DNA of 50,609 nucleotides from the NCBI GenBank assembly GCA_023954815.1, contig JAGSHB010000021.1, forward strand, positions 1 to 50,609, in the 5' to 3' direction. Shown here piece after piece: positions 2,084-21,757 of this stretch. The notes under the pieces are model-generated. The model saw nothing but the letters and a program-made list of their open reading frames with translations. It made no database searches and was not told the DNA's origin. This stretch comes from Myxococcales bacterium (lineage in GTDB: Bacteria > Myxococcota_A > UBA9042). Every line of letters starts with the position of its first letter. Position 1 is the stretch's first letter. A program made the translations under genes and the position numbers.

Positions 2084-3784
2084 CTATTTCTTCGTGTCGG
2101 GCTCAGCCAACCAGGTCTTCAACCAAGTCCGCCGACCGGTGATGAAGTCCTTGACCTCTTGGACGCGCGAAAGCAACTCCTCGTTCTTTGCTCTTTTAAG
2201 TTTGTCGGCCAAAATGTCCGGTTGCATGCGACACATGGTGTTGTCGATGCGTGCGGCCAGAAAGCTGGTGTTGAAGCGACCTTCGATGAGATGCGCGATA
2301 AAGGCCCGATACCGCTGGCGAAACCGCTTCACGCTCAACAGTCGATCGGCCAACTGATTGTAAAATAGCGTGCCGTTATTCATCCCGACGTAGGGATTGC
2401 CGTCGGTGAAGATATTCTCATCGAAGACGTCGTTTTCTTCCGTCCAGAGGTGGCCCAGACTCAAATCCAGGTCCCACGGAATGATCGTCCAGCGCGAATC
2501 GGTGGCCTTGGGATCGCGGTAGAGATAGTAGTTCTTCTTCACCCAATCCTGATTCTGCGTGACGGCGAACAGCGCCAGCGCCACCAAGATATCGTCGGTC
2601 TTGATGATGCGATCGGCGTTCTGTTCGAACTCATCATCGGGCAACTGCAGCACCACCTCGATCAGCTCGATGAGGTCCTTGTAGTCCAGCTTGCCCTCGT
2701 GCTCTTGGTACAAATCAGGGTAGTCGTCCTTGTTCTTCGGCACGGTGAGGTTGCCGCCCGGCACGCTCTTAGCGAAGGGCGGATCGGCCTCGTACAAGCT
2801 GCCGTCCTTGTTCCAACCGCGGTCCTTGAGGAAATGGCTGTCGATCCGCTCGGGGTGCAGCATGACGCCGTGATAGCGCGCTCCGAGCCGCAGGTGCACG
2901 TTCATCAGCCGCGAGGAAGCCAGCCAAGTGCCGTGACGCATCACCTCGTAGGCCACAAAGCTACGCACCTGACTCTTGTCGACAAACTCGGCCCGCAGCA
3001 CCAACTTGCGACGGCCGTCGGGCATGCGCTGATCTTTGTCGAGGTTGAGCCGAAAGCTCTTCTTCTTGAAGGTACGACTCGAGCCGCCGTGCAGCCGCAT
3101 CTTGCCCTTGCGCGTCTTGCCATCGATGATCAGCGCGGCGGGAATCCAGATCTTGGTGTTTGGATCAGCATAGATCTTGGCCAGATCAGCCGGATCGACA
3201 TCAATGCGCCATACCGGCAACTGACTGGTGAAACCAAAGAGATCCACGCTGCCGGTTTCGCCGTTGGTGAACGTCGCGGTCACGTTGTGGGCGCCCTCTT
3301 TCGTCACCTTCACGATGATGTCCGCCCGGCCCGCTTTGACCTCTTGGGTGTGGACGACCGTCACCCCCACCGGGGTCTTCACCGTTAGCTTGCCTGCAGC
3401 TTTTGTGTCGTGTTTCCCAGCCTTATCGTAGATTTTGACCTCGATGGTCTCCTCGGCGCCAAGGGGCTGCAGCACCGCGCTGGGCTTGAGCTTGAGGCCC
3501 TTGTTCTTCACATTTTGCGGCGGCAGCACCCACGCGTCACTCCACGGCTTGCAGCTGGGCAGGCTGGTGTCTGTCGACAGGGGCCAAGGGGCTGCGTCCG
3601 GCGAGCTCACATCGGTCATGAAGTAGCCAGGACCGCCGCCATCAGAGCTCCCGCCATCGGCGCCGCCTGTACTGCCGCCATCTTTATTGGTCGTACCCTC
3701 GTTGGGGTCAGGCTCTCCCCCCGCGCAGCCCACCAGCGCGATAGTGAGGAAGAAGATGTGCAAGCAAGCGGTAAGTTTGTTCAT
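2084..3784 (-). CDS. CotH-kinase-family lipoprotein
   Basis: A 566-residue exported lipoprotein. The N-terminus is a lipoprotein signal (IALVGC, acyl Cys at residue 20), followed by a Gly/Ser/Asp-rich linker of the kind common in Myxococcota surface proteins. The body matches the CotH family: RLHGGSSR followed by FKKKSFRLNL, then DWVKKNYYLY and a WTIIPWDLDLSLG block. In CotH from spore formers this fold is an atypical protein kinase that uses the Asp/Asn residues around the last two motifs. In this Gram-negative context a cell-surface kinase or an architectural role are both possible. It is divergent from the OB-fold lipoprotein gene, with a 99-bp intergenic region that must hold both promoters. 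Confidence 0.85.
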   Translation of the reverse strand: MNKLTACLHIFFLTIALVGCAGGEPDPNEGTTNKDGGSTGGADGGSSDGGGPGYFMTDVSSPDAAPWPLSTDTSLPSCKPWSDAWVLPPQNVKNKGLKLKPSAVLQPLGAEETIEVKIYDKAGKHDTKAAGKLTVKTPVGVTVVHTQEVKAGRADIIVKVTKEGAHNVTATFTNGETGSVDLFGFTSQLPVWRIDVDPADLAKIYADPNTKIWIPAALIIDGKTRKGKMRLHGGSSRTFKKKSFRLNLDKDQRMPDGRRKLVLRAEFVDKSQVRSFVAYEVMRHGTWLASSRLMNVHLRLGARYHGVMLHPERIDSHFLKDRGWNKDGSLYEADPPFAKSVPGGNLTVPKNKDDYPDLYQEHEGKLDYKDLIELIEVVLQLPDDEFEQNADRIIKTDDILVALALFAVTQNQDWVKKNYYLYRDPKATDSRWTIIPWDLDLSLGHLWTEENDVFDENIFTDGNPYVGMNNGTLFYNQLADRLLSVKRFRQRYRAFIAHLIEGRFNTSFLAARIDNTMCRMQPDILADKLKRAKNEELLSRVQEVKDFITGRRTWLKTWLAEPDTKK

Positions 3785-3883
3785 GACGACAGGCTACATG
3801 TCTCCTGCCCGCGGAAAAAGCACCCCTTCCCCTGCGCCGCGTTGCGGGCTAAAAACAGCAACCCCCCGGTACGGAGCCACGTG

Positions 3884-4936
3884 ATGCGCCACTTTCGCCA
3901 GTTCATGACCTTTGCGTGCTGCGCGGTGCTGCTCACCGGCGTCGGGTGCAAGGAAGAGCAGAAGGCGCCGTTGAATGTTCCGGCGATCGAACACACCAAG
4001 CCTGTGGCGCCCGTCAAACGCCTCGGTCGGCTCGTTAAAGCGGTCGATCCGACGATCGCCAACGCCCTGGCTGGCAAGACCCGTTCGGCGCTGAAGGTGC
4101 ACGTCAGCGGTGCAAGGCTGGGACCGCGTTATGCGTGGCTGAAGGTGACAGACGACTCCGGCAGCGCTTGGGCGGTGACGCCGCCGCTGTCCGCGACGCC
4201 GACCGGCCAGGTCGAATTGAAGATCTGGGTCCGCCAGCAGGTCGACTTGCCCCATGAGGCGACCAAGGCGCTGGTGCTGTGGACGGCGCGTATCGCAGGG
4301 GACGACGTCAAACCGCTGGAGATGGGCGAAGAGGCGGTCATCGATCCGGTGTTCGCCGCGATGGAGATCACCGGCACGGTCGTTCGCAGCGACCCGCCTG
4401 AATTTCCAGCCGCCGATCACACCATCGCCGCGCTGCACATGGATAAATCACGCCTCGAGGGCTCAGAGGTCAGCGTGCGCGGTCAAGTGCTGCACGTGAT
4501 TCCCGATCTCTCGGGGCGCACGTGGTGGGTGCTCCGTGACGGCCGCGCAGATCCAGCGACGGGTGAGGCCGATCCCTTCGCCAGCGGAGGCCCCCAAGTG
4601 CTGCTGGTCGCCGCCTCCTCGCCTGTCGACGTGGGCGACATCGTCTTGGTGCGCGGCACCCTGCAGGTGGACAAAGCCTTCACGCTGACCGGGCCCATCG
4701 AACTCATGCTTATGCCAGCGACGCGCCAAAAAGATGCCCTACCGACCCTCATCGCGCCGACCGCGGCCAACGCCAAGCCAGCGCCAACAGGTACGGCTGC
4801 CATCGCCACCAAGCCGCTGAAAGGCGCCGATGCAGGCAGTCTACCGGCCCCCTCCGCCCCTGCCGAAGGTGACGACAGTCCTGAAGGCGCCGACGATCCC
4901 GAGGGTGAGTCCCCCAACCCCGACGAAGGTCCATGA
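3884..4936 (+). CDS. OB-fold lipoprotein
   Basis: A 350-residue protein starting at the ATG at 3884; the longer open frame upstream is antisense to the CotH gene and is rejected. Residues 1-22 form a lipoprotein signal (LLTGVGC). A block around residues 185-275 looks like the exported OB-fold domain seen in many bacteria: ALHMDKSRLEGSEVSVRGQV, then TWWVLRDG, then GDIVLVRGTLQVDKAFTLTG. Such domains bind ligands or other proteins, and the ligand here is unknown. The C-terminal 60 residues are Ala/Pro/Asp/Glu-rich and probably disordered. The stop overlaps the start of gshB (ATGA), so the two are translated together. Confidence 0.75.
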   Translation: MRHFRQFMTFACCAVLLTGVGCKEEQKAPLNVPAIEHTKPVAPVKRLGRLVKAVDPTIANALAGKTRSALKVHVSGARLGPRYAWLKVTDDSGSAWAVTPPLSATPTGQVELKIWVRQQVDLPHEATKALVLWTARIAGDDVKPLEMGEEAVIDPVFAAMEITGTVVRSDPPEFPAADHTIAALHMDKSRLEGSEVSVRGQVLHVIPDLSGRTWWVLRDGRADPATGEADPFASGGPQVLLVAASSPVDVGDIVLVRGTLQVDKAFTLTGPIELMLMPATRQKDALPTLIAPTAANAKPAPTGTAAIATKPLKGADAGSLPAPSAPAEGDDSPEGADDPEGESPNPDEGP

Positions 4937-5868
4937 ACGCCAGACACCTATTCGTAGCCGACGACATCGGCCCGATGAACATCCACCAAGACTCGACCTT
5001 CGGCCTGATGCTGCACTGCCAGGATCGCGGCTTTGAGGTTTACCACTGCGACACCGACGGGTTGCTCGGCCGAACTTCAGGCGCCATGGCTCGCTGCCGA
5101 CCAGTGCAAGTTCGGGAGGTTGTGGGCGACCACTACACGATTGGAGAGTCGGAGGTGCTGCCCCTGGGCGCGTTTGATGCCATCTGGATGCGCAAAGATC
5201 CGCCCTTCGACATGAACTACATCGCCGCGACCTACATCCTCGACGGCGCGCCTGCCACAACGCGCGTGGTCAACCGGCCGTCGAGCCTGCGCGATTGGAA
5301 CGAAAAGGCCGCTGTGCTGCGCTTCCCTGAGCTGGCGCCGCGCTGTCTGCTGACGCGCAATATGGCCGAGATCAAGGCCTTTCAGCGCGATGTGGGCGGC
5401 TCCGTGGTCATCAAACCCCTCGCTTTTTCAGGGGGTACCGGCATCGTGGCGCTGCACCCGGGCGATCTCAACACCAATGCGCTGCTCGAGATCTCGACCC
5501 GCAACGGCGAGGAGTTCGTGCTCATTCAGCAGTACATGCCTGAGGTCACCGAGGGCGACAAACGGGTCATCCTGGTCAACGGAGAGCTCGGCGGAGCGCT
5601 GCTGCGGGTGCCGCCAGCGGACGATTTGCGGGGCAACATCCACGTCGGCGCGCGCACGGAATACGTGCAGCTTGAGCCAGCTGAGGTCGTGCTCTGCGAA
5701 GCCCTCAAGCAGCCGCTCAAAGACGCCGGTCACATCTTCGTCGGCATCGATCTCATCGGCGGCAAGCTCACCGAGATCAACGTCACCAGCCCGACCGGCA
5801 TCCGAGAGATTCTACACGCCGGCGGCACCGACCTCGCCGCAGCGCTGGTCGATGCCGCGCTAGCGTAG
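4933..5868 (+). CDS. gshB: Glutathione synthetase
   Basis: A 311-residue ATP-grasp enzyme that joins gamma-glutamylcysteine and glycine to form glutathione in the cytoplasm. It has the family's usual length and landmarks: an N-terminal FVADDIGPMNIHQDSTFGLM block, the substrate-domain signature WMRKDPPFDMNYI, the ATP-grasp lid VVIKPLAFSGGTGIV, and the C-terminal metal/ATP site around INVTSPTGIREI. Its ATG overlaps the stop of the OB-fold lipoprotein gene by four bases. No gshA is in the window, so the first pathway step must be encoded elsewhere. Confidence 0.93.
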   Translation: MNARHLFVADDIGPMNIHQDSTFGLMLHCQDRGFEVYHCDTDGLLGRTSGAMARCRPVQVREVVGDHYTIGESEVLPLGAFDAIWMRKDPPFDMNYIAATYILDGAPATTRVVNRPSSLRDWNEKAAVLRFPELAPRCLLTRNMAEIKAFQRDVGGSVVIKPLAFSGGTGIVALHPGDLNTNALLEISTRNGEEFVLIQQYMPEVTEGDKRVILVNGELGGALLRVPPADDLRGNIHVGARTEYVQLEPAEVVLCEALKQPLKDAGHIFVGIDLIGGKLTEINVTSPTGIREILHAGGTDLAAALVDAALA

Positions 5869-5881
5869 CCGCCGCACGGAG

Positions 5882-7372
5882 CTAACGAGCCGGCGCATAC
5901 AGCTCGCCCATGAACCCAGACAGCACCGCCTCGTTCATCTTCGCTGGCATCGCGTCGAGGATCCGGTTGATCGGCGCCATGCGCTCGGGCAGCTCCGCAC
6001 CCTGCTCGCCCGCGCCGACACCCATCAGCCCCAGCATGCCCATCAGCTCATCGCCCGACAGCGTCTGACCGGCCATGGCTTGCAGCATCTGCCCCATCTC
6101 CGCATTGGGCCGCACGTCGGGCAGGGTACGGGCGGCTTGGACCGCATCCTGTAGATCCGCCAAGAAGGGCGTCACCCGATCGAGGGTTCCCCAACTGTTG
6201 AGCGACAGGTGCACATTGCCGGCGTAGCGCTGCCCCGTCGGCCCCGTGTGCCCGAGCTGCGGCTGCACATACCAACCGCGGGCGCTCATCTCGTCGGCGA
6301 CGTGAAAGACGTCGAACTCGGTCGAGGTGAAGGCGAACATGCACATGGCAGGTTGACCCATGATCTCAAGACCATCGATCGCTGAGATGCCCTCCAGCAG
6401 GGCGAGCGTCGCTTGCCGCAACCTGTCGGTAATCGCCATGTAGCCTTCGTCGCCCAAAAAGCGCATCACACTCCAAGCGCCGGCCAGCGGACCGCCCGAT
6501 TTGCTGCTCTGCACCGATGGGTTGACCACCGTGTAGCCCGCCCAATCGCTACAGGCGAACCCAGCCGCGTTGCGCAGGGTCTTGTTGCGAAACAGCACCA
6601 CCGAGGCGCCCTTGGGGCAAAATCCGTACTTGTGCAGATCGACGCTTAAAGACGTAACCCCTTTGACTTCAAAGTCAAATGCATCGATGACATCAGTCAT
6701 ACCGTCTGCGAGTTGCAGGCGACGCCAAAAGGGCAGCATCCAACCGCCAACACAGGCGTCCACGTGAAAGGGCAGGCTGCGCGTCTCGCAAATAGCGCCG
6801 ATGGCAGCGATGGGATCCATCACGCCGTGGGCATAGCCCGGGCTCGACGCCACCACCAGCACGGTCTGCTCATCGATCGCCGCAGCCATGGCCTCCGGGG
6901 TCACCGCGAAGGAGACGGGATCGACCTCGACGAGCACCAGCTCCACATCGAAGTAGCTCGACGCCTTGTGGAAGGCCGCATGGGCCGTCACCGGCAGCAC
7001 CATATTGGGGCGCGTGACCTCTGGGCGGGTCTGGCGGGCGAAGTCTCGCGCCGACTTCACAGCGAGCAAGATCGACTCAGTGCCGCCGCTGGTGAACGTC
7101 CCCACGCCATCGTCCGGCAGGTTGAGGTGCGACGCACAGAAGCCGACGATCTCATTTTCCAGCCGCATCAGGGATGGATAGACCGTTGGATCGAGCGCAT
7201 TTTCGGTCAAGAAGCTTGAAAAAGCAGCCTTTCCGACGGCCATCGCCTCGGCGCCAGGATCGTAGACGTAGGCGAAGGTGCGGCCTTCTTGCCAGTTCAC
7301 ATCCCTGCCTTTGTAGGTCTGCAGCTCGGCGAGCAGGGTGTCTTTGTCTTTGCCTTGTGAGGGAAGTGCCAT
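5882..7372 (-). CDS. PLP-dependent decarboxylase / sphingosine-phosphate-lyase-like enzyme
   Basis: A 496-residue fold-type I pyridoxal-phosphate enzyme of the group II decarboxylase / sphingosine-1-phosphate lyase superfamily. Visible landmarks are FTSGGTESILLAVKSARD (cofactor phosphate loop), the VDACVGGW segment carrying the Asp that pairs with the pyridine nitrogen, and SVDLHKYGFCPKGAS with the Schiff-base Lys. The start is taken at the ATG at 7372, preceded by GGAG; the frame is open further upstream but that part runs into the tetR gene. The last 80 residues (Met/Gly-rich) exceed the core domain. The substrate cannot be told from sequence: aromatic or acidic amino acid, or a phosphorylated long-chain base. 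It follows tetR on the same strand and is probably under its control. Confidence 0.8.
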   Translation of the reverse strand: MALPSQGKDKDTLLAELQTYKGRDVNWQEGRTFAYVYDPGAEAMAVGKAAFSSFLTENALDPTVYPSLMRLENEIVGFCASHLNLPDDGVGTFTSGGTESILLAVKSARDFARQTRPEVTRPNMVLPVTAHAAFHKASSYFDVELVLVEVDPVSFAVTPEAMAAAIDEQTVLVVASSPGYAHGVMDPIAAIGAICETRSLPFHVDACVGGWMLPFWRRLQLADGMTDVIDAFDFEVKGVTSLSVDLHKYGFCPKGASVVLFRNKTLRNAAGFACSDWAGYTVVNPSVQSSKSGGPLAGAWSVMRFLGDEGYMAITDRLRQATLALLEGISAIDGLEIMGQPAMCMFAFTSTEFDVFHVADEMSARGWYVQPQLGHTGPTGQRYAGNVHLSLNSWGTLDRVTPFLADLQDAVQAARTLPDVRPNAEMGQMLQAMAGQTLSGDELMGMLGLMGVGAGEQGAELPERMAPINRILDAMPAKMNEAVLSGFMGELYAPAR

Positions 7373-11446: not shown

Positions 11447-11551
11447 CCCAAAACGCGGCGCAAATTGGCGTGCAATCGCACTCCAAGCCGCCCACATTCC
11501 CCTTTGCGTTGCGAATGCGCTATGACCGTAGCCCGAACGACCGAGGTACCT

Positions 11552-12994
11552 ATGGACTCCAAGAAGTGGCCTATCGTGCTGTTTGCGCTGGTTGTAGGCG
11601 GCGTATTTTTCGCGCTTTCCACAACTGAGCCGGCGGGGACGGCTGGCATCGCGAGCGGGCAGGGTGGCGCTACTGGGAAACAGGCCACCACCGTAGCGAC
11701 GAACGGAGCGACCACCCCAGCTGCCCTGGCGCAGCCCAAGCCGCCATCGCCAAGGATAGCAGCGCTCACAAAGTCCGCGCCCAACGGTGGAAATACGGGG
11801 GGCGCCGGCAATACTAGTGGCACGGCCACAAACACGGCGTTGCCGGCGCCGCCTCAGCCGACCACGGCGAATCCTCCGGGCGAGCCGAAAGCTGCGGCGG
11901 GAGAAGTTGCCCTGTTCTTTAGCGCCAACAACAAGGGTGAGTTGATCGACTGCGGCTGCCGTAAAAGTCCGCTCGGAGGGCTCGCGCGGCGCGCGAAATG
12001 GGTCGATGAGCGCAAAACCCGCTTCGCAGGGGCTGTGCACGTCGACGCTGGCGGGAGCTTGAGCGCAGACGCGGGGCTCGACGCCGATGGGCCGGGTCAG
12101 GCCGCCGGGCGCACCGAGGTTTATCTCGCAGGTCTTGCCGCAGCACACACCGCTGCACTCAACGTGGCGCCAGCGGAGTTGGCCGTCGGAAAATCTGTGC
12201 TGGTCAGCGCCGCCAAACGCCACAAGGTGGACCTCGTGGCGACCAATACGGTAGCGATGCAGAGCGGCAAACCCGCCTTCAAACCGTGGCTCATCATCGG
12301 TCTGGGCGATCTCAAGGTCGCGATTTTGGGGCTGACGACGCAGCGTCCGCCGCGGCATGAGGCGCTCTACACCAAACAAGGGCTCGCGCTGACGACACCG
12401 ATGAAGGCAGCCCAACGGGCCGTGACCAAGCTGAAAGGCAAGGTCGACGCCATCGTCGCGCTGAGCTGGCTGAGCCAGGCAGAGATGGATGACCTGGGTG
12501 AGAAAGTCCCTGAGATCGATTTTATCATCGGCGCCAAGGACTCAGACCTGACCATGCGTCCGGAATTCTTGGGTCGAGGCTTCCGCATGGACAGCTACGA
12601 CAAGGGAAAATGGTTAGGAGAGCTGCGGCTACGCAAGGGCAAGACCGCCGAGCGGCGTTGGTTTAACCCGGATTTGCGGGATCGCCTCGCCTACGATCAG
12701 GGCAGCGCGCAGCGGGAGGTTGCCTACTATCTGAAAAAGCATGCTGACGAAGACAAGGCAGGCGGCCCCAAGGACCCGCGCAGTCGCAAGTTTGAGCGAG
12801 ACCGGCTCGTCGCTCAGCGGGCCAAACTCGCGCGGGTGAACCTGGAGCTCAAGGGCGATATCGACCCACCCGACGGCGCGCCGAGTTTCAGCCTCAAAAT
12901 GCATGCGATGCGGACCTCTTTGCCCGAAAATCCGGCCATCACGAAGCTGGTCGACGGCCATCACAAGCGCTTTCCGCCGCCGCCGCGGCACTAG
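11552..12994 (+). CDS. Membrane-anchored metallophosphatase-like protein
   Basis: A 480-residue protein. Residues 7-22 form a single hydrophobic anchor (WPIVLFALVVGGVFFAL), then a Gly/Ala/Thr/Pro-rich linker of about 100 residues, then a globular part that resembles periplasmic 5'-nucleotidase-type metallophosphatases: NNKGELIDCGCRKSPLGGLA, VHVDAGGSL and a LGDLKVAILGLT strand. The usual NDxHG metal motif is not intact (ANNKG), so activity is doubtful. The start at 11552 is preceded by GAGG; an ATG at 11522 in the same frame is the alternative. It lies about 100 bp after the propeller-like gene and may belong to the same unit. Confidence 0.6.
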   Translation: MDSKKWPIVLFALVVGGVFFALSTTEPAGTAGIASGQGGATGKQATTVATNGATTPAALAQPKPPSPRIAALTKSAPNGGNTGGAGNTSGTATNTALPAPPQPTTANPPGEPKAAAGEVALFFSANNKGELIDCGCRKSPLGGLARRAKWVDERKTRFAGAVHVDAGGSLSADAGLDADGPGQAAGRTEVYLAGLAAAHTAALNVAPAELAVGKSVLVSAAKRHKVDLVATNTVAMQSGKPAFKPWLIIGLGDLKVAILGLTTQRPPRHEALYTKQGLALTTPMKAAQRAVTKLKGKVDAIVALSWLSQAEMDDLGEKVPEIDFIIGAKDSDLTMRPEFLGRGFRMDSYDKGKWLGELRLRKGKTAERRWFNPDLRDRLAYDQGSAQREVAYYLKKHADEDKAGGPKDPRSRKFERDRLVAQRAKLARVNLELKGDIDPPDGAPSFSLKMHAMRTSLPENPAITKLVDGHHKRFPPPPRH

Positions 12995-13064
12995 CGACGT
13001 TCGCAATCTTCAGGGCAGTCAACGGTACGAACAGACCGCTTGTCTGTCTCAATTGGAAGGCCCC

Positions 13065-13988
13065 ATGGACCTCAACGAGATCTTGATCTTCACCCGCGTG
13101 GTCGAAACCGGCAGTTTTACCGCCGCAGCGAAAAAGCTGGGGATGCCCAAATCGACTGTCAGCCGAAAGGTCAGCGCGCTAGAAGAGCGGCTCGGCGTTC
13201 GCCTGCTCCACCGCACCACCCGCCAACTACGCCTGACCGATGTCGGAGAGACCTTCCACGCCAGCTGCGCCGACATCATCGGCGCATTGGTCACTGCAGA
13301 GCGCGCGGTCACCGAAACCCAGGCCTCTCCCAAAGGTCGACTGCGTGTCACGGCTCCGGTCGATTTTGCCGTCCAGGTGCTGCCGCCCCTGCTCCGCGGC
13401 TTCAGGACACGCTACCCAGACGTAGAGATCGACCTGGACCTATCGGGGAAGGTCGTCGATCTGGTTGCCGATGGCTTCGACGTCGCGGTGCGCGCCTCGG
13501 CCCAGTTGCCCGACTCCAGCCTCATCGCTCGCAAGCTGGGCGTGACCCGCATGCACCTAGTCGCCTCTCCCGCCTACCTGAAAAGGGCCGGCAGACCTGG
13601 GCGGCCGGACCAGCTACCGGAACACTCCTTCATCCTGCGCCATCGCCAGAGAAGAACGCTGCAGTTTGAAGGCCCGGCGGGCAATCGCAAAATTGTGATC
13701 TCCGGTTCACTCTCGGTCAACGAGCTGGGTATGATCCGCAAGTTGGTGCTGCAAGACCTCGGCATCGCCACGTTGCCCGATGTGCTGTGTTGCAAAGACC
13801 TGAGCGAGGGTCGATTGGTTCACCTGCTGCCAGCTTGGACGCTACCGCAAACCGGCATCTACGCCGTTTACCCGAGCGCTCGCCATCTATCGGCGCCCGT
13901 GCGTGCATTTATTGACTTTCTCAAGGCAGAGATGTCTCCACGCACATGGCAAGTGGGGCGGTCGGAAGTTGACGGTCTGGACGTCTAG
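13065..13988 (+). CDS. LysR-family transcriptional regulator
   Basis: A 307-residue LysR regulator. Residues 1-60 are the winged helix-turn-helix (TAAAKKLGMPKSTVSRKVSA, then LEERLGVRLLHRTTRQLRLT), and the rest is the two-lobed co-inducer-binding domain typical of the CrgA/DsdC-like branch that begins KGRLRVTAPVDF. The start at 13065 follows GGAAGG. It usually acts as a tetramer on a divergent target, but here no divergent gene lies adjacent, so its target is not evident. It converges on the large RNA gene, whose terminator begins 17 bp past its stop. Confidence 0.92.
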   Translation: MDLNEILIFTRVVETGSFTAAAKKLGMPKSTVSRKVSALEERLGVRLLHRTTRQLRLTDVGETFHASCADIIGALVTAERAVTETQASPKGRLRVTAPVDFAVQVLPPLLRGFRTRYPDVEIDLDLSGKVVDLVADGFDVAVRASAQLPDSSLIARKLGVTRMHLVASPAYLKRAGRPGRPDQLPEHSFILRHRQRRTLQFEGPAGNRKIVISGSLSVNELGMIRKLVLQDLGIATLPDVLCCKDLSEGRLVHLLPAWTLPQTGIYAVYPSARHLSAPVRAFIDFLKAEMSPRTWQVGRSEVDGLDV

Positions 13989-14005
13989 AAAAGCTCACAA
14001 ATACG

Positions 14006-14038
14006 AAAAACCCCGGACCGCTTGCGCGATCCGGGGTT
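14006..14038 (-). terminator. Intrinsic terminator of the large RNA
   Basis: On the minus strand a 13-bp stem (14026-14038 pairing with 14009-14021, one G-U pair) is closed by a GCAA tetraloop (14022-14025) and followed by five T residues (14006-14010 read as complement). The plus-strand direction has only a weak T-run, so the element primarily ends minus-strand transcription, though it may also attenuate the convergent LysR transcript. Confidence 0.9.
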
Positions 14039-15718
14039 ATCCGGTTGTACGGCAGAACTGACCGCCCATGAGTTTCACCTTTCAATGCGTGTCTTCACTC
14101 AGGCAGTCTCACGCTTTGGGTCTCCCCAAGGCGCCTACTGGCCTTCATGAACTCATCCTCTCACGAGTCGTAAAGTCGGTGTCGCCACCTACTGTACTTC
14201 CACTCATCGTGTTTCTGTCGACTTCAGCGTATTTGACCGAAGAGTTGGTGCGCTATTGGTTCCGCACGCCCGCCTTGATGTTCTCCCTGTCCGTCGTCTC
14301 CCTTGCGGGTCACGATTTTCAGTTTGTCACCTTCGCGGTACTCACTCTCCGGCTTGGCAAGGAGATCGCTCGCCCTCTCCATCCGCTCATGTCTCTTCAG
14401 CTCACGTTCAGCGTCTATCCTCGTCGAATCTGCCACACCACCTACCGAAGTCTGACTTCACTTCGCTCTAGCCTTGCGACTATCGCGTCCTGTCGTCTTC
14501 TCCCCCGAATCGCTTCCTCACAGTGACTGGCGCTTGCTTTCCGGGTTACCCCGAACAACTGCTCTCCTCCGCCGAAGCGGTTGTCTTCTCCTCGCTCTGC
14601 TCTCCAAGTTTCCGCCAACCTCGCCGTCTCTCGACCGCTCCGCCGCTTCCCCTCGTCAACCATCACGCTCGCTGCATCTCTACGACCGGTAGCTCCCACC
14701 AATTCGGCATCTTCACCAGCGTTACCGCTACTTCCAACCCCGCCTTAGCTTCCTTCCAGTGGGTCTGTGACCACGCATTCTCGGCTTTTTTCGCCCCTTC
14801 GACACCATCAGTGATTTGCAGCGACCTACATCGGGGTTTCCTTTCCCGACTGTGCTGCGTCTTCAGGCTTTCTCAACCTCTTGACGCTTTGATTCCGCTC
14901 ATCACCTTTCAACCTTGTTTCATGCTGAAAGCGTCCATGGGATTTATCCCTTCGAAGGTTTCCCCCCAACCGTAGCCTTCCACAACTTTCGCTGTGTCGT
15001 GCCCTCTTCACCCTTGTCCCTGACGCTCCGTTTGACTGTCCGCCTCCTGGTGTTGCCACCCGAAAACGACCGTCTCCCGTTTCGCCAAGTTGGGGCCCTG
15101 AGGATTGCTGCATCGGTCAGGTCCGTAGTACCGCTCCGGTGTTAACCGGTTTACGCTACCCGCTCCTTCCTTGGGCTTATGCCTCTCCGGGGATTTCTCC
15201 CCGCTGCTCTCGGCGACGCCGCGTCTTTCCACGCGCCCTAGCTTTCGCTTCCCTTCGGTGTCACCACCTCCAAGTCCTGTCCGCTCTGACCTCGTGTTCT
15301 GTCACGTCGCCCCCTTCTTTCATGGGCTTCGGCACTTCCCTCGACTCACGCTCTCGGCAACCGTCCACCCCTCTCCCCCTTGCGGGTTCGATTGGCGACC
15401 TCTTTACTTCGACCTTATCGCTTCAAACAGTCCCTGAAGGTTGCCCTTCGGAAGGGATCGCTCTCGTTGGCTCTTCCCAAGCTTCCGTTTGCCTCGCTTG
15501 CGCTTAGCTCACTTCCCTTTGGGAGTCCCCGTTGAGGCTGTTCTATCGACCAGTGCGTCGGTCTCGTGCCTGCTCTGCAAAGTTTCAAAGAACCGCGGAT
15601 TGGCTTGCCTCTTGCGAGACTGCCTCCCCCCCTGAGGTTTTCCGTCCGTGACCTCATTCCGCGAAGGAAATCAATCGTTTGGACCCTCTGTGCGACCAGC
15701 TCCGTAGTGCCGTTCAAC
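14006..15718 (-). ncRNA. Large structured noncoding RNA, about 1.7 kb, not identified
   Basis: No frame on either strand holds a credible gene; the open frames are short and overlap one another. The minus strand is purine-rich with dense local hairpins. The 5' end predicted from the promoter (about 15718) starts the strand GUUG-A-ACGGCA (15708-15718), which pairs with UGCCGU-A-CAAC at 14044-14054, one mismatch in eleven, joining the two ends. A second nested helix pairs 15694-15699 with 14058-14063. Stable hairpins include GUCUC-GCAA-GAGGC inside 15602-15624, a bulged stem with GCAA loop at 15431-15457, GGGGA-GAAA-UCCCC at 15189-15202, CCGC-UUCG-GCGG at 14569-14580, CGGG-GUAA-CCCG at 14542-14553, CCC-GCAA-GGG at 15377-15386 and 14300-14309, and twin GGUG-GNGA-CACC hairpins at 14178-14189 and 15257-15268. 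A strong terminator ends it. This architecture recalls OLE, GOLLD and ROOL RNAs, but I recognise none of them, and I see no group II intron domain V or GUGYG start. Function unknown. Confidence 0.75.
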
Positions 15719-15725
15719 GAGGGCG

Positions 15726-15753
15726 ACTCTACGGATTGGCGTCACAATGTCAA
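15726..15753 (-). promoter_or_regulatory. Sigma70-type promoter of the large RNA
   Basis: On the minus strand a perfect -35 hexamer TTGACA (15748-15753) and a -10 hexamer TAGAGT (15726-15731, four of six matches to TATAAT) are separated by 16 bp. Initiation would fall at about 15718-15719, the first base of the 5' strand of the long-range closing helix. That coincidence supports both calls. Confidence 0.7.
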
Positions 15754-15778
15754 CACCTTTTTGACACATATCTGTCAC
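15748..15778. promoter_or_regulatory. TGTCA/TGACA half-site cluster at the RNA promoter
   Basis: An inverted repeat TGTCAA (15748-15753) / TTGACA (15761-15766) with a 7-bp spacer overlaps the -35 box, and a further TGTCAC (15773-15778) follows. This is a plausible operator for a dimeric regulator controlling the large RNA. The remaining bases up to uvrA (to 16084) hold a CAGTCC/GGACTG hairpin (15924-15942) and no gene that I can support. Confidence 0.45.
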
Positions 15779-16084
15779 TTTTGTGATTCTGGCTTGATGT
15801 TCGATCGTTACAGTTCAACTTTTTGTCGTAGAGACCACATTCGCAGGCTTGTTGGGCTGATTCTCGGTGCTGTGTCACAAAAAAGTGGGGTTTGACGGGG
15901 TTCAGATGGCATGTGGCAGCCGGCAGTCCGCAAACAGGACTGGACTCAGTGTCTCCGCGCCGCCGAAGCCGCCGTCCGTGGACCATTTACTGCGGACACC
16001 CTTGGGCTTTTGCGGCGAGCCGCGCACACTTTCTGCCGCGCGTCTGGGAAGCGGCCGCGCGCGGTCTTTCGCTGCGGAGTTTTT

Positions 16085-19000
16085 GTGACCAGCACTCCTG
16101 ATGTCATCTCCCTCAAGGGAATCACCCAGAACAACCTGCGCGGCTTCGACCTCGACGTGCCCCTGCGCCAGGTCACGGTCATCACCGGGGTCAGTGGCTC
16201 GGGCAAGAGCTCGTTGGCGTTCGATACCCTCTATGCGGAAGGCCAGCGTCGTTATGTCGAGTGCCTGAGCACCTACGCACGGCAGTTCCTCGAGCGGATG
16301 GACCGGCCGGATGTGACAGAGATCACGGGTATCCTGCCGACGGTGGCATTGCAGCAGGGCAAACGATTGCGGGCGGCGCGCAGCACCGTGGCCACCCTGA
16401 CCGAGGTCAGTGAGTACCTGAAGGTCGTCTTCGCGAGCCGCGCGCTGCCGACCTGTCCCAATGGGCACGGACCGATGACCCGGCTGCAGACGCCGCACGT
16501 CGTCGACGCGCTGTGGGCGCATGCCCAGGGTCGGCGGGCGGTGATTACCTTCCCGCTGAAGTTGGTGAGTGTGGCGGCGGCGGCGCTGGCGACCGAGCAG
16601 CTGCAGCGGGCTGGGCTCCATCGCGCGTTCGACGGTACCAAGGTGACGAAGCTGGACAGCTGCGAGCCGGGCCGCACCACCCATGTCGTGATCGATCGAT
16701 TGAAGATCACGGCGCAAGATAGGGTGTTTGAGTCTGTCCACGAAGCGCTCCGCCGGGGGGACGGCGAGGTCGACATCTGGCTGGAAGGCGAGCCGCTGCC
16801 GCCGGAATCCGGCTTATTCGCCGACCTGACTGACCCAGCCGCCAAGTTGACGCGGCACCGGGCTTCGAGCGCCCTGCGGTGCGACACCTGCGAGGCAGAG
16901 ACGCCCGATCCCTCGCCCAACCTATTTTCGTGGAACTCGCCGGTGGGCGCCTGCGAGTCCTGTAACGGCTTCGGCCGCATCATGGCCCTCGACTTCGATC
17001 GCTGTATCCCCGACGCGCAGTTGAGTCTGAATGACGGCGCGTTCAAACCGTGGTCCACAGCGCGCGCTAGTTGGGAGCGTGGCCAACTCGCGGACTTCTG
17101 CGGGGCGGCCGGTATCGATATGAACGCGCCGTGGCTGACGCTGCCTGAGGCGGACAAGCAGTGGCTGATCGATGGCTACGACCCGGATGAACACACCGAT
17201 TTTCCAGGGGCTGAGCGCTATTACGGCTTGCAGGAGTGGTTCGATTGGCTGGAGACCCGCACCTACCGCATGCACGTACGGGTGCTGCTGAGTCGCTATC
17301 GCAAGTATGTGACGTGCCCTGCCTGTGATGGTGCGCGTCTCAAGCCGGAGGCCTTGGGCTGGCAGCTCGCCGGCAGCAACCTGCCGGGCTGGCTCAACCT
17401 GCCGATCGGACAGTTGGGCGGATTGCTCGTGGAGCTGGGCCAAAGCGATAGGGCAGAGCGAGCGACCACGGAGCTGGCCCGCCGCATCGCGCTGCTCGAT
17501 GAACTCGGTCTTGGTTACCTGACCCTGGGCCGAGCGGGGCGCACGCTGTCGGGCGGTGAATTGCAGCGGGTGCAGCTGGTGACGGCGCTGTCGAGTGGGC
17601 TCAGTCAGGTGCTGTATGTGCTCGACGAACCCAGTGTCGGTCTCCATCCCAGGGACAATGCGCGGCTGCTGAAGATCCTCCATCGGCTGAAGACCGCTGG
17701 GAATACGGTGGTGATGGTCGAGCACGATCCGGCGCTCATCGCGGCGGCAGATCACCTCGTCGACCTCGGACCGGGTGCAGGAGAGCGGGGGGGCGAGCTG
17801 CGCTTTTCGGGGCCGCCCAGCGCGCTCAAGGCGGGGAAGGGCAGCCTCACAGCCGACTACTTGCTGGGACTGAAGCAGGTCAGCTCGCCAGAGGCGGAGC
17901 GGCAGTCGGCAGCGCTCGATCCACACGATGCCCGCGGCGCTGCTTCTGGTTCACGGGCGGTGGCTTCCAGGGCGCGGAAGCTACAGCGGATGCGCACCCA
18001 ATCGGCCATCACGCAGCCCTGGTTGGCTGTGCGGGCACCGACGGCGCGCAATCTCAAAGGCGGTCGTGTGCGCTTTCGCCGCGGGCGTCTCAACGTCATC
18101 TGCGGGGTGAGCGGCTCGGGCAAATCGACGCTCATGGCCGAGGTGCTGCACCGGGCGATGAAGCGGCAACTGGGCCAAGTGACCGATGCGCCGGGAGACC
18201 ACGAAGGGCTCAGTGGCACAGAAGGGTTGCAGGATGTGGTCTTGGTGGAGCAGGCCCCGGTCGCCGGCAACAGTCGCGCCAATCCAGCGACCTACCTCAA
18301 GCTCTGGGATGGCATTCGCAAGCGGCTGGCTACGACGGAGCTCGCAACAGAGCTCGGCTACACCGCGTCGACGTTTTCGTTCAATCGGCCTGGTGGGCGG
18401 TGCACAGTCTGCGATGGCGCCGGGGTCGAGATCGTCGACATGCAGTTCTTGTCGGATGTGCGTATCACCTGCGAAGCCTGTGAGGGGAAACGGTTTTTGC
18501 CGGAAGTCCTGACCGTCAAAGTGCGAGGCATGAGCGCGGCCGATTTTCTGGGGGCGACCGCGCAGGAGATCGCCACGCGCTTCGCTGACGACAAGAAGCT
18601 CGCCAGGCCGGCGCAGGCCATGTGCGAGCTCGGGTTGGGCTATCTGCGCCTCGGACAGCCGCTCGGCACCTTGTCTGGCGGTGAGTCCCAGCGGCTCAAA
18701 GTTGCGTGGCACCTGCTGTGCAAACGCACCAAGCAAACGCTCTTCTTGCTGGATGAACCGTCGACAGGGCTGCATCTCGATGATGTGCGGGTGCTCTTGG
18801 GGAGCCTCAATAAGCTCGTCGCTGCGGGTAATACGGTCATCGTGGTGGAGCACCATCTCGATGTCATCGCGGCGGCTGATCACGTGGTGGAGTTGGGGCC
18901 TGAGGGTGGGCCGGGTGGTGGACATCTGATCTACCAGGGCCCGCCTGTGCGTCTGGCGGAAGTGGCGGATACGCCGACGGGTCTTTGGCTGCAGGACCAT

Positions 19001-21757
19001 CTGGCGCAGCAGGGAAAACCGCTCTCATTTGCAGCGGGAAACGCACCAGACGACCCGGAAACCCTAGCCCAAAGCGCGGATGAAGCTGCGTATGTGGCCT
19101 TGGAGACGCAGCGTGATCCGGGTCATGTCGCGGTGCGAGGCGCGCGGGTTCACAATCTGCGCGACGTGTCGGTGGACATCCCCAGAGACAAGCTGACGGT
19201 CATTACCGGGCTATCGGGTTCTGGCAAGTCGTCCCTGGCCTTTGATGTGGTCTTTGCGGAGGGTCAGCGGCGGTTCCTGGACTGCCTGTCGCCCTATGCC
19301 CGCCAATACCTGCCGCCGGTGAGCCGGCCCGATGTGGACAGCCTGCAAGGTCTGCCGCCGACGGTCGCGATCGCCCAACGCACCACGCGCGGGGGCAGTC
19401 GCTCGACGGTCGGTACCCTGACGGACATCGCGAGCTACCTGCGGCTGCTCTTTGCGCGTTGTGGCCATGTGGCATCCGATGGAGATCTGAGCCTGCGTAC
19501 GCCGGATGAAGTCGCCGCGATTTTGGTGAAGCGACCGGCAACGGCGCCCTTGTATGTGATGACGCCGCTCATTCGGGGTCGCAAGGGCTTTCACCGGGAC
19601 GTGATCGAAAAAGCGCAGCGTGCCGGGCGCCGGTGGATTCACGTGGACGGCGCCCTGTGTCCCATCGATGCGGTGCCTGCCCTGCGCCGCTATACCGCGC
19701 ACGATATCGACGATGTGGTTCACCGCCTGCTACCGACCGATGAGACGACCACGGTAGGTGAAGATGGCACCCGTCACTGGCAGTTGGAGGTTCTCACACA
19801 GGCTGTTTTTGATGCGATGACGTCCGGTGATGGCCAGGTGCGGGTGCGACAAGCACAGACCACGACCCAGAGTTTTGATGTCGATCCGGATGGCGGTGGT
19901 GCGACGCGGCGGGCGAGTGGTCTCGATCCCCTGCTGTTTTCGTTCACCTCAGCGCGGGGATGGTGTCCGACTTGTCGGGGTTCGGGTCAGGCTGAGGCGC
20001 CGGAGGGCGCGGGTAAGAAACGGGGGAGAAAGCCAAAGAAAGCCAAGCAAAGCGACGGTTCCGAGCCGCTGGAAGAGGGAGAGCTGCGGAAGGGTGAGCA
20101 AGATCCGGTTCGCCATCTGGATCTCTGCCAGACCTGTTCAGGTAGCCGACTGCGGCCGGAGGCGCTCGAAGTGACCATCGCTGGCCACACGATTGTGCAG
20201 CTCAGCTCGATGACCGCCGAGACCCTGCAGACGACCCTGGAGCAGATCACGTGGAGTCCCCGGGACCGCATCATCGCCGAGCCCATCGTTCGCGAGGTCT
20301 GTGCGCGGGCGGCGTTTCTGCTCGATGTGGGGCTGGATTACCTCGGTATGGATCGCAGCGCGGTGACGCTATCTGGCGGGGAGAGTCAGCGGATTCGGTT
20401 GTCGAGTCAGCTGAGCTCCAACCTGCGTGGTGTGCTCTATGTGCTGGACGAGCCGACCATCGGGCTGCATCCGGCGGACAATGGCCGCCTGCTCGAGGCC
20501 TTTGACCGGCTCATCGCTCGTGGCAACGGGCTGCTGGTGGTCGAGCACGACGAAGAGACCATCTTGCGCGCAGATCACGTCATCGAGTTGGGACCCGGTG
20601 GCGGTCAGGAGGGCGGGCGTGTGCTGCATGCCGGGCCGCTGACGGAGTTGCTCGCCGATCCGGCCTCCCCCACAGGGCGGATGCTGCACGACAGAGACCT
20701 GCGGCGGTTTCGGCTAGACGCCCGGCCGGTGGACAACGCGCAGCGATTCATCACGCTGACGGGTGCGAGGCGCAACAACCTGCAATCGGTGACGGCACAC
20801 ATCGCGCGCGGTCGACTCAACGGCGTCTCTGGGGTGAGCGGCTCGGGCAAATCTACCCTGGTTCGTGATCTGCTCGTCGGCGTCGGCGGTAGCATCGTGC
20901 ACGCGCCCCGGGGTACTGCGCCTGATCTTGGTGCGTTGTCTGCGCGCAGCGAGGTCGACAGCATCATGGGACTCGACGGCTTCGGCCGCATCGTCGAGGT
21001 CGATCAGAGCCCCATCGGCCGGACGCCCAGGTCGTGTCCTGCGACCTACTTGGGCATCTGGGACACCATCCGTAAGCAGTTCGCCGCCCAATCTGAGGCG
21101 AAAGTGCTCGGCCTCAAAGCGAAGCACTTTTCGTTCAACGTCAAAGGCGGCCGCTGCGAATCGTGCCAAGGCGCAGGTGTCATCAAGGTGCTGATGAGCT
21201 TTCTGCCGACGGTCTACGTGCCTTGTGAGACCTGCGGCGGTGCGCGCTACAACAGACAGACCCTGCGGGTGACGGTTAAGGGCGCGACAATCGCGGATGT
21301 GCTGGCGATGAGCATCGCTGAGGCGGCGACACACTTCGCTCACCTCCGCGGCGCGCAGCGAGCCCTATCGCTGGCGGACCAAGTCGGGCTGGGATATCTG
21401 CGGCTGGGCCAGGGCAGCAATACCCTGTCGGGAGGGGAGGCGCAGCGGATCAAGATCTGCGCCGACCTGGCCAAGCAGCGCCGTGCGGAGACCTTGTACG
21501 TACTCGATGAGCCGTCGACTGGGCTGCATCTGGCCGATCAGCGAAAGCTGCTGGGCGTTTTGCATGAGCTGGTCGATCGCGGCGATACGGTGGTGGTCAT
21601 CGAACACAATCTGGATGTGCTCAAAGAGGCCGATTGGCTGGTTGACCTCGGCCCGGGTGGTGGCAGCCACGGCGGACAGGTGGTTTATCAGGGACCGGTG
21701 GGTGCGCTAGTCGATGGACAGCTGCAAACACCCACGGCCATCGCACTGCGAGCATAG
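16085..21757 (+). CDS. uvrA: Double-length UvrA (two UvrA units in one chain)
   Basis: About 1890 residues, twice a normal UvrA, the damage-recognition ATPase of nucleotide excision repair. Four Walker A loops are visible: GVSGSGKSS at residue 35, GVSGSGKST at about 674, GLSGSGKSS at about 1042 and GVSGSGKST at about 1583. Each is paired with an LSGGE signature and a LDEPSxGLHP/L-type Walker B. Each half also has CxxC zinc-module pairs, e.g. [16 protein letters not shown] with [16 protein letters not shown] with CQTCSGSR, and CESCQGAG with [10 protein letters not shown] Lys-rich insertion ([12 protein letters not shown]) lies in the third module. So the chain is a covalent version of the normal UvrA dimer. 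The start is GTG 16085, preceded by GGAG; upstream in-frame ATGs lack support. Whether it is the only UvrA of this genome cannot be judged here; it could act in repair or as a UvrA-like resistance ATPase. Confidence 0.9.

Follow-up and report, generated by a model that had tools for sequence, protein, structure and literature searches.

A region of about 1.7 kb in the window (the whole 50,609-nt stretch of DNA that was analysed, from a Myxococcales bacterium) appears to encode, on the minus strand, a large structured RNA whose family is almost certainly real and spread over the Myxococcota. A bolder reading, with a rough probability of 0.45, is a phylum-wide giant RNA of up to ~2.5 kb, with repeated domains and about ten loop motifs, that would assemble into an RNA or RNA–protein particle. 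Very few bacterial RNAs besides rRNA reach kilobase size with a conserved fold, and the known cases (OLE, ROOL, and GOLLD) revealed unexpected RNA-only assemblies; an RNA that is longer, chromosomal, phylum-wide and present in multiple copies suggests that RNA has a cellular role yet to be described.

The RNA gene lies between a LysR gene (12903-13988) and a plus-strand gene for a UvrA-like protein of 1948 aa (15911-21757), and is delimited by the following elements:

14006-15718, minus strand: large structured noncoding RNA gene, ~1.7 kb, recognized from its promoter, terminator, homologues, covariation and noncoding character
15726-15753, minus strand: sigma-70-like promoter, TTGACA-16-TAGAGT
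15708-15718, minus strand: closing helix, 5′ arm, GUUGAACGGCA
14044-14054, minus strand: closing helix, 3′ arm, UGCCGUACAAC
14009-14038, minus strand: intrinsic terminator with a 13-pair stem, GCAA loop and T tail

A preliminary description of this DNA, made from the sequence alone, had listed the promoter, the GCAA-looped terminator, a transcription start coinciding with the start of the closing helix, a purine-rich minus strand and a location between a LysR gene and a double-length UvrA gene; each of these elements was located in its place, and the description is accurate. The promoter hexamers (TTGACA, 15753-15748; TAGAGT, 15731-15726; spacer of 16 nt) have no second promoter-like counterpart in 13900-15950, where shuffles lead to an expectation of 0.4. 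The RNA is predicted to start at ~15718, the first base of the 5′ arm, and to end at the T tail of the terminator. Within the closing helix, GUUGAACGGCA (15718-15708) and UGCCGUACAAC (14054-14044) form 10 of 11 pairs, with one mismatch, and the 3′ arm sits just ahead of the terminator hairpin (14038-14009). The minus strand is purine-rich, since the plus-strand skews between the LysR and UvrA genes are negative (GC down to −0.36, AT down to −0.44), and the folding energies of the two halves of the region are 3.1 and 4.2 SD better than those of shuffles. The UvrA-like protein is about twice the usual length, with ABC and UvrA domains repeated, and an ORF upstream of the LysR gene (11465-12994, plus strand, 509 aa) has no Pfam match at E ≤ 1e-5.

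Homologues form the closing helix from arms of unrelated sequence (GGACUUGGAAA/UUUCCAGGUCC, GGUUCGGAGAC/GUCUCCGAACC, and GGACGUGA/UCACGUC), and both RNA ends are taken as fixed because the helix persists through these replacements. A similar promoter-like hexamer pair stands a few bases 5′ of the closing helix in at least 15 loci, a terminator hairpin follows the helix in most homologues, and the two signals together frame the RNA in the window and in most loci with intact ends. Judged by these signals, which provide it with a promoter-like site and a terminator of its own, the region is a stand-alone RNA gene.

Open reading frames of up to 152 aa are found in the region on the opposite strand, which would be the starting point for reading it as a protein-coding region, intact or decayed, that was wrongly taken for RNA. 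Eight ORFs from the region gave no match in a Pfam search, however, and the nearest homologue, which is from the same genus and 68% identical in global alignment, has a different set of reading frames. Substitutions between the two sequences are distributed evenly over the codon phases (163/177/176), and 16 of 18 indels would shift a reading frame, their lengths not being divisible by three. The region does not evolve like coding sequence, and the preliminary view that these ~1.7 kb hold no credible gene stands. Because base pairs covary throughout, the coding reading is in practice refuted, and its probability is negligible.

In 5′ to 3′ order, the RNA consists of the closing helix, a 5′ module, a variable region, the core, a core-like second domain, a 3′ domain and again the closing helix. 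The 5′ module is represented by the covariance model R1 and the core domain by the models R2 and R3; the conserved parts lie in the window at:

15564-15653, minus strand: 5′ module, with the GNRA hairpin GUCUC-GCAA-GAGGC and the motif GGUUCUUUGAAACUYUG, from the alignment and R1 scans
14775-14970, minus strand: core domain, a multibranch junction, from covariation and model scans; basis of R2 and R3
14248-14267, minus strand: 3′-domain hairpin GUGCG-GAACCAAUAG-CGCAC with a conserved ten-base loop, from the fold of the window with two congeners

The loop of the 3′ domain is of the GAACCAAUA type, and in full-length homologues of the type (G/A)AACC(A/G)(A/G)UA. The consensus fold of the window and two congeners has a z score of −17. 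That of 11 full-length RNAs (1038-1188 nt) has an energy of −572, compared with −262 ± 9.6 for column-shuffled alignments (z −32), and double substitutions occur at 127 of its 273 pairs. When the cores of nine window-type sequences are aligned by plain MAFFT, 87.8% of cells are paired, vs. at most 42% with the partners slid, and 19 pairs are doubly changed, compared with 9.5 in shuffles (0/500); 13 sequences of a second type are 94.4% paired, with 68 doubly changed cells vs. 18.2 (0/500). Across 42 core sequences from the phylum, in an alignment that was fitted to the structure and so leans towards it, 39 of 43 pairs are doubly changed, and the doubly changed cells number 419, compared with 142.6 in shuffles and at most 80 with the partners slid. 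Compensatory changes, for which the preliminary description had looked to homologues, are thus abundant within the Myxococcota, and they indicate that the fold is maintained by selection; neither a conserved reading frame, nor an rRNA or intron match, nor a lack of covariation appeared. Pseudoknot candidates from an all-against-all helix search were rejected, as their columns are shared with nested helices and show little covariation. There are no conserved palindromic (kissing) loops among the full-length homologues, and their 11 sequences, a small sample, give no clear loop–loop or pseudoknot covariation of the kind that backed multimers for GOLLD and OLE, which speaks against a scaffold.

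A DNA search located the RNA in 16 of 53 genomes, including that of the window, with conserved modules at variable spacing. Among the 52 genomes of the window's class, R1 matched 21 and R3, a core model rebuilt from 42 sequences, matched 30 (as counted from its table of matches). Of 379 Myxococcota genomes, 64 were matched by the first core-model scan and 78, from many families and from other classes too, by R3, in a phylum scan whose stricter Infernal filters lose weak matches and whose count includes borderline hits near E = 1e-3 taken without individual inspection. In the window and at all 24 other loci accepted by R1, the core, an independent second module, lies 3′ of the 5′ module on the same strand; one more R1 match, L098 in genome G205, scores 34 bits but has no core and apparently lies in coding DNA, and was discarded as due to chance. 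Genomes carry up to six copies, and divergent copies are found in, e.g., G055 (six core matches) and G034 (four). In a pair of congeneric genomes the same two copies are shared, at 89% and 94% identity between the genomes, while the paralogues are only 66–67% identical to each other, and therefore an old duplication has been retained. Most matching contigs are titled as Myxococcota, Myxococcales, or Deltaproteobacteria bacteria, and a 5′-motif scan of GTDB contigs gave above-chance R1 scores only in records already placed in the window's class. One contig titled Oligoflexales (DUVQ01000126.1, L082) carries the RNA; its match position agrees with that in G033:C69, of the window's class, so that the title looks mislabelled.

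Patchy distribution and as many as six copies per genome are features that a selfish element, whether derived from a phage, a plasmid or otherwise, would share, and GOLLD and ROOL are usually phage-borne. Such an origin is nevertheless very improbable, as BLASTN against phage and plasmid records found no homologue, some relatives share flanking genes, and old paralogues have been kept. Viral contigs gave two exact matches to the 5′ motif, which were rejected because they lie in apparently coding DNA and score 21 bits with R1, the level of chance matches in unrelated bacteria, and two further sequence patterns gave zero matches in these contigs. No tRNA genes were found in the window.

The genes that flank the RNA vary widely (Pfam on the flanking proteins of ~24 loci), and common flanks are limited to a few pairs of loci, which share UvrA in the window's genus, a phospholipase and a kinase in a second pair, and a CDP-alcohol transferase in another. 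The RNA does adjoin a UvrA gene, as had been pointed out for this locus, but the family is wider than the locus, spread over the phylum with varying neighbors; because the neighbors differ, UvrA is no functional partner of the family as a whole, and for the same reason the RNA very probably acts in trans. A relative of the UvrA-like protein with 71% identity adjoins the RNA in a genome of the same genus (G003). Action in trans could also be that of a regulatory RNA working by target pairing or sequestration (as an antisense, sponge or ligand-sensing RNA), to which a stand-alone transcript with a promoter-like site and several conserved single-stranded loops would be suited. Yet this RNA is mostly paired, with compensatory changes, has far more structure than pairing needs, and is linked to no gene, all of which make a regulatory role improbable.

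Known RNA families were compared at the level of the window, the region, and the homologous loci. The window gave zero matches at gathering level to all 4227 Rfam 15 models, and the region, at E ≤ 5, gave chance-level matches only, the best of which was to the terminator hairpin. Twenty homologous loci likewise gave nothing at gathering level, another 20 gave none above the family gathering score, and a search of open-access papers found no description of the RNA. The preliminary description had likewise recognized no known family; its comparison with the style of OLE, GOLLD, ROOL, and HEARO holds for the large structured RNA and fails for the phage link, since no phage homologue was found. 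In size and style the RNA is akin to the loose group of large ornate RNAs, whose families are, to our knowledge, not homologous to each other. OLE, which is ~600 nt long, occurs mostly in Bacillota and is part of a known RNA–protein complex, resembles the Myxococcota RNA as a large conserved RNA with non-canonical homopurine pairing. This pairing takes the form of an intermolecular stem of four A-A pairs in OLE (PMC12286853), whereas in the Myxococcota RNA the homopurine oppositions are predicted within internal loops and repeated about ten times. GOLLD, with many members longer than 800 nt (PMC12286853), is also a large stand-alone structured bacterial RNA that combines a conserved with a less conserved region; however, the Myxococcota RNA is longer and chromosomal, with no phage or tRNA association found and no Rfam match. 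ROOL is a stand-alone ornate RNA without a known protein partner, but the ROOL RNA studied has 659 nt and is phage- or prophage-linked (PMC12286853), and the Myxococcota RNA gave no sequence or structure match to it, nor any phage link. HEARO, the IsrB-associated RNA, is likewise a structured bacterial RNA, of 343 nt in the example studied, and serves the nickase IsrB (PMC12286853); no IsrB-type nuclease was found by Pfam among the flanking proteins of ~24 loci. Group II introns and rRNA are comparable in size range and multidomain folding, but the Myxococcota RNA has its own promoter-like site and terminator and is not inserted in a gene; there is no reverse transcriptase among the flanking proteins (~24 loci) and no Rfam match to an intron or rRNA. 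Since membership by sequence and structure fails for each named family, we judge the Myxococcota RNA to be a new class, distinct from OLE, GOLLD, ROOL, and HEARO.

Two features repeat within the molecule. In many homologues the core model matches once more, and more weakly, ~210–250 nt downstream of the core (e.g., L039, 6807-6987; L135, 1833-2024; and L146, 4063-4251), which suggests that the RNA grew by domain duplication. Symmetric 3 × 3 internal loops are the other repeated element: the consensus of the 11 full-length RNAs has eleven, compared with 0–3 in 24 column-shuffled alignments, and of 238 cells at the outer oppositions of these loops 212 (89%) are G.G or A.A, vs. 33% in shuffles; when the core loop is compared across 42 sequences, each of its two outer oppositions is homopurine in all but one (41/42 and 41/42), where reshuffling gives an expectation of 21.3 and 25.5 and none of 5000 reshufflings was as high, and both the consensus and the core-loop statistics ignore kinship among the sequences. 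Across sequences, the outer oppositions of the core loop alternate between G.G and A.A; a related, isosteric G.G/A.A exchange occurs in the HIV Rev response element. There are about ten homopurine 3 × 3 loops per RNA, which were missed in the first reading, and seven loops of the window follow the homopurine rule:

14862-14882, minus strand: AAG (14882-14880)/GAA (14864-14862), the core loop, G.G/A.A in 41/42 and 41/42
14798-14938, minus strand: AUG (14938-14936)/GAA (14800-14798), from the consensus fold
14951-15172, minus strand: AAG (15172-15170)/GAA (14953-14951), from the consensus fold
15007-15099, minus strand: AGG (15099-15097)/GAA (15009-15007), from the consensus fold
14205-14409, minus strand: GAA (14409-14407)/AUG (14207-14205), from the consensus fold
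14223-14390, minus strand: AUG (14390-14388)/GAA (14225-14223), from the consensus fold
14274-14334, minus strand: GAA (14334-14332)/AAG (14276-14274), from the consensus fold

K-turn and sarcin-ricin readings of the loop were tried by hand and rejected, as the sequences do not fit, and exact k-mer counts of CUCUGAA and GAGAGG, which were of little use, were replaced by the loop rule. The occurrence of G.G or A.A in repeated internal loops is by itself a testable rule of RNA structure.

In the proposed mechanism, the RNA would be transcribed on its own and fold unaided into a large multidomain particle, and from this structure we infer that it may work in trans as an architectural scaffold. 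Full-length homologues have several hairpins capped by GNRA loops whose N and R positions vary freely; together with these invariant tetraloops, the ~ten 3 × 3 loops on junction-separated helices would present repeated docking sites, at which either RNA packs against RNA, giving self-assembly of the ROOL, GOLLD, and OLE kind, or a single protein binds in many copies. A scaffold in this broad sense is favored, and is on the whole probable, because of the size of the RNA, its second core-like domain, the repeated 3 × 3 loops and the GNRA loops kept as a class. An RNA-only homo-oligomer in particular, by analogy with ROOL, GOLLD, and OLE, which self-assemble (PMC12286853), seems unlikely, though less so than the rival functions; size and complexity do not imply assembly, as the monomeric raiA motif RNA shows (PMC12286853). 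The strongly conserved loops could equally be compatible with an active or ligand site, and a large ribozyme acting on itself or in trans would be in keeping with the size, the conserved junctions and the conserved loops left unpaired (UGAAANAN and GAACCARUA among them), which could form its active site. The RNA matches no known ribozyme or intron family, however, its promoter and terminator mark a free transcript and not a gene insertion, and conservation is spread across the molecule and not at one site; a ribozyme is thus about as improbable as a regulatory RNA. Given the boundaries, the consensus fold and the covariance models, direct experiments on transcription, probing, assembly and deletion are feasible for a scaffold particle, as for the RNA at large.

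The length of the RNA ranges from ~1.04 kb through 1.7 kb in the window to ~2.05 kb at L155 and 2.5 kb at L094, the last two lengths being read by eye. At L094 (~3740-6240 of G024:C270), the region from the 5′ module to the core is enlarged to ~1.5 kb and contains many UUCG-capped hairpins.
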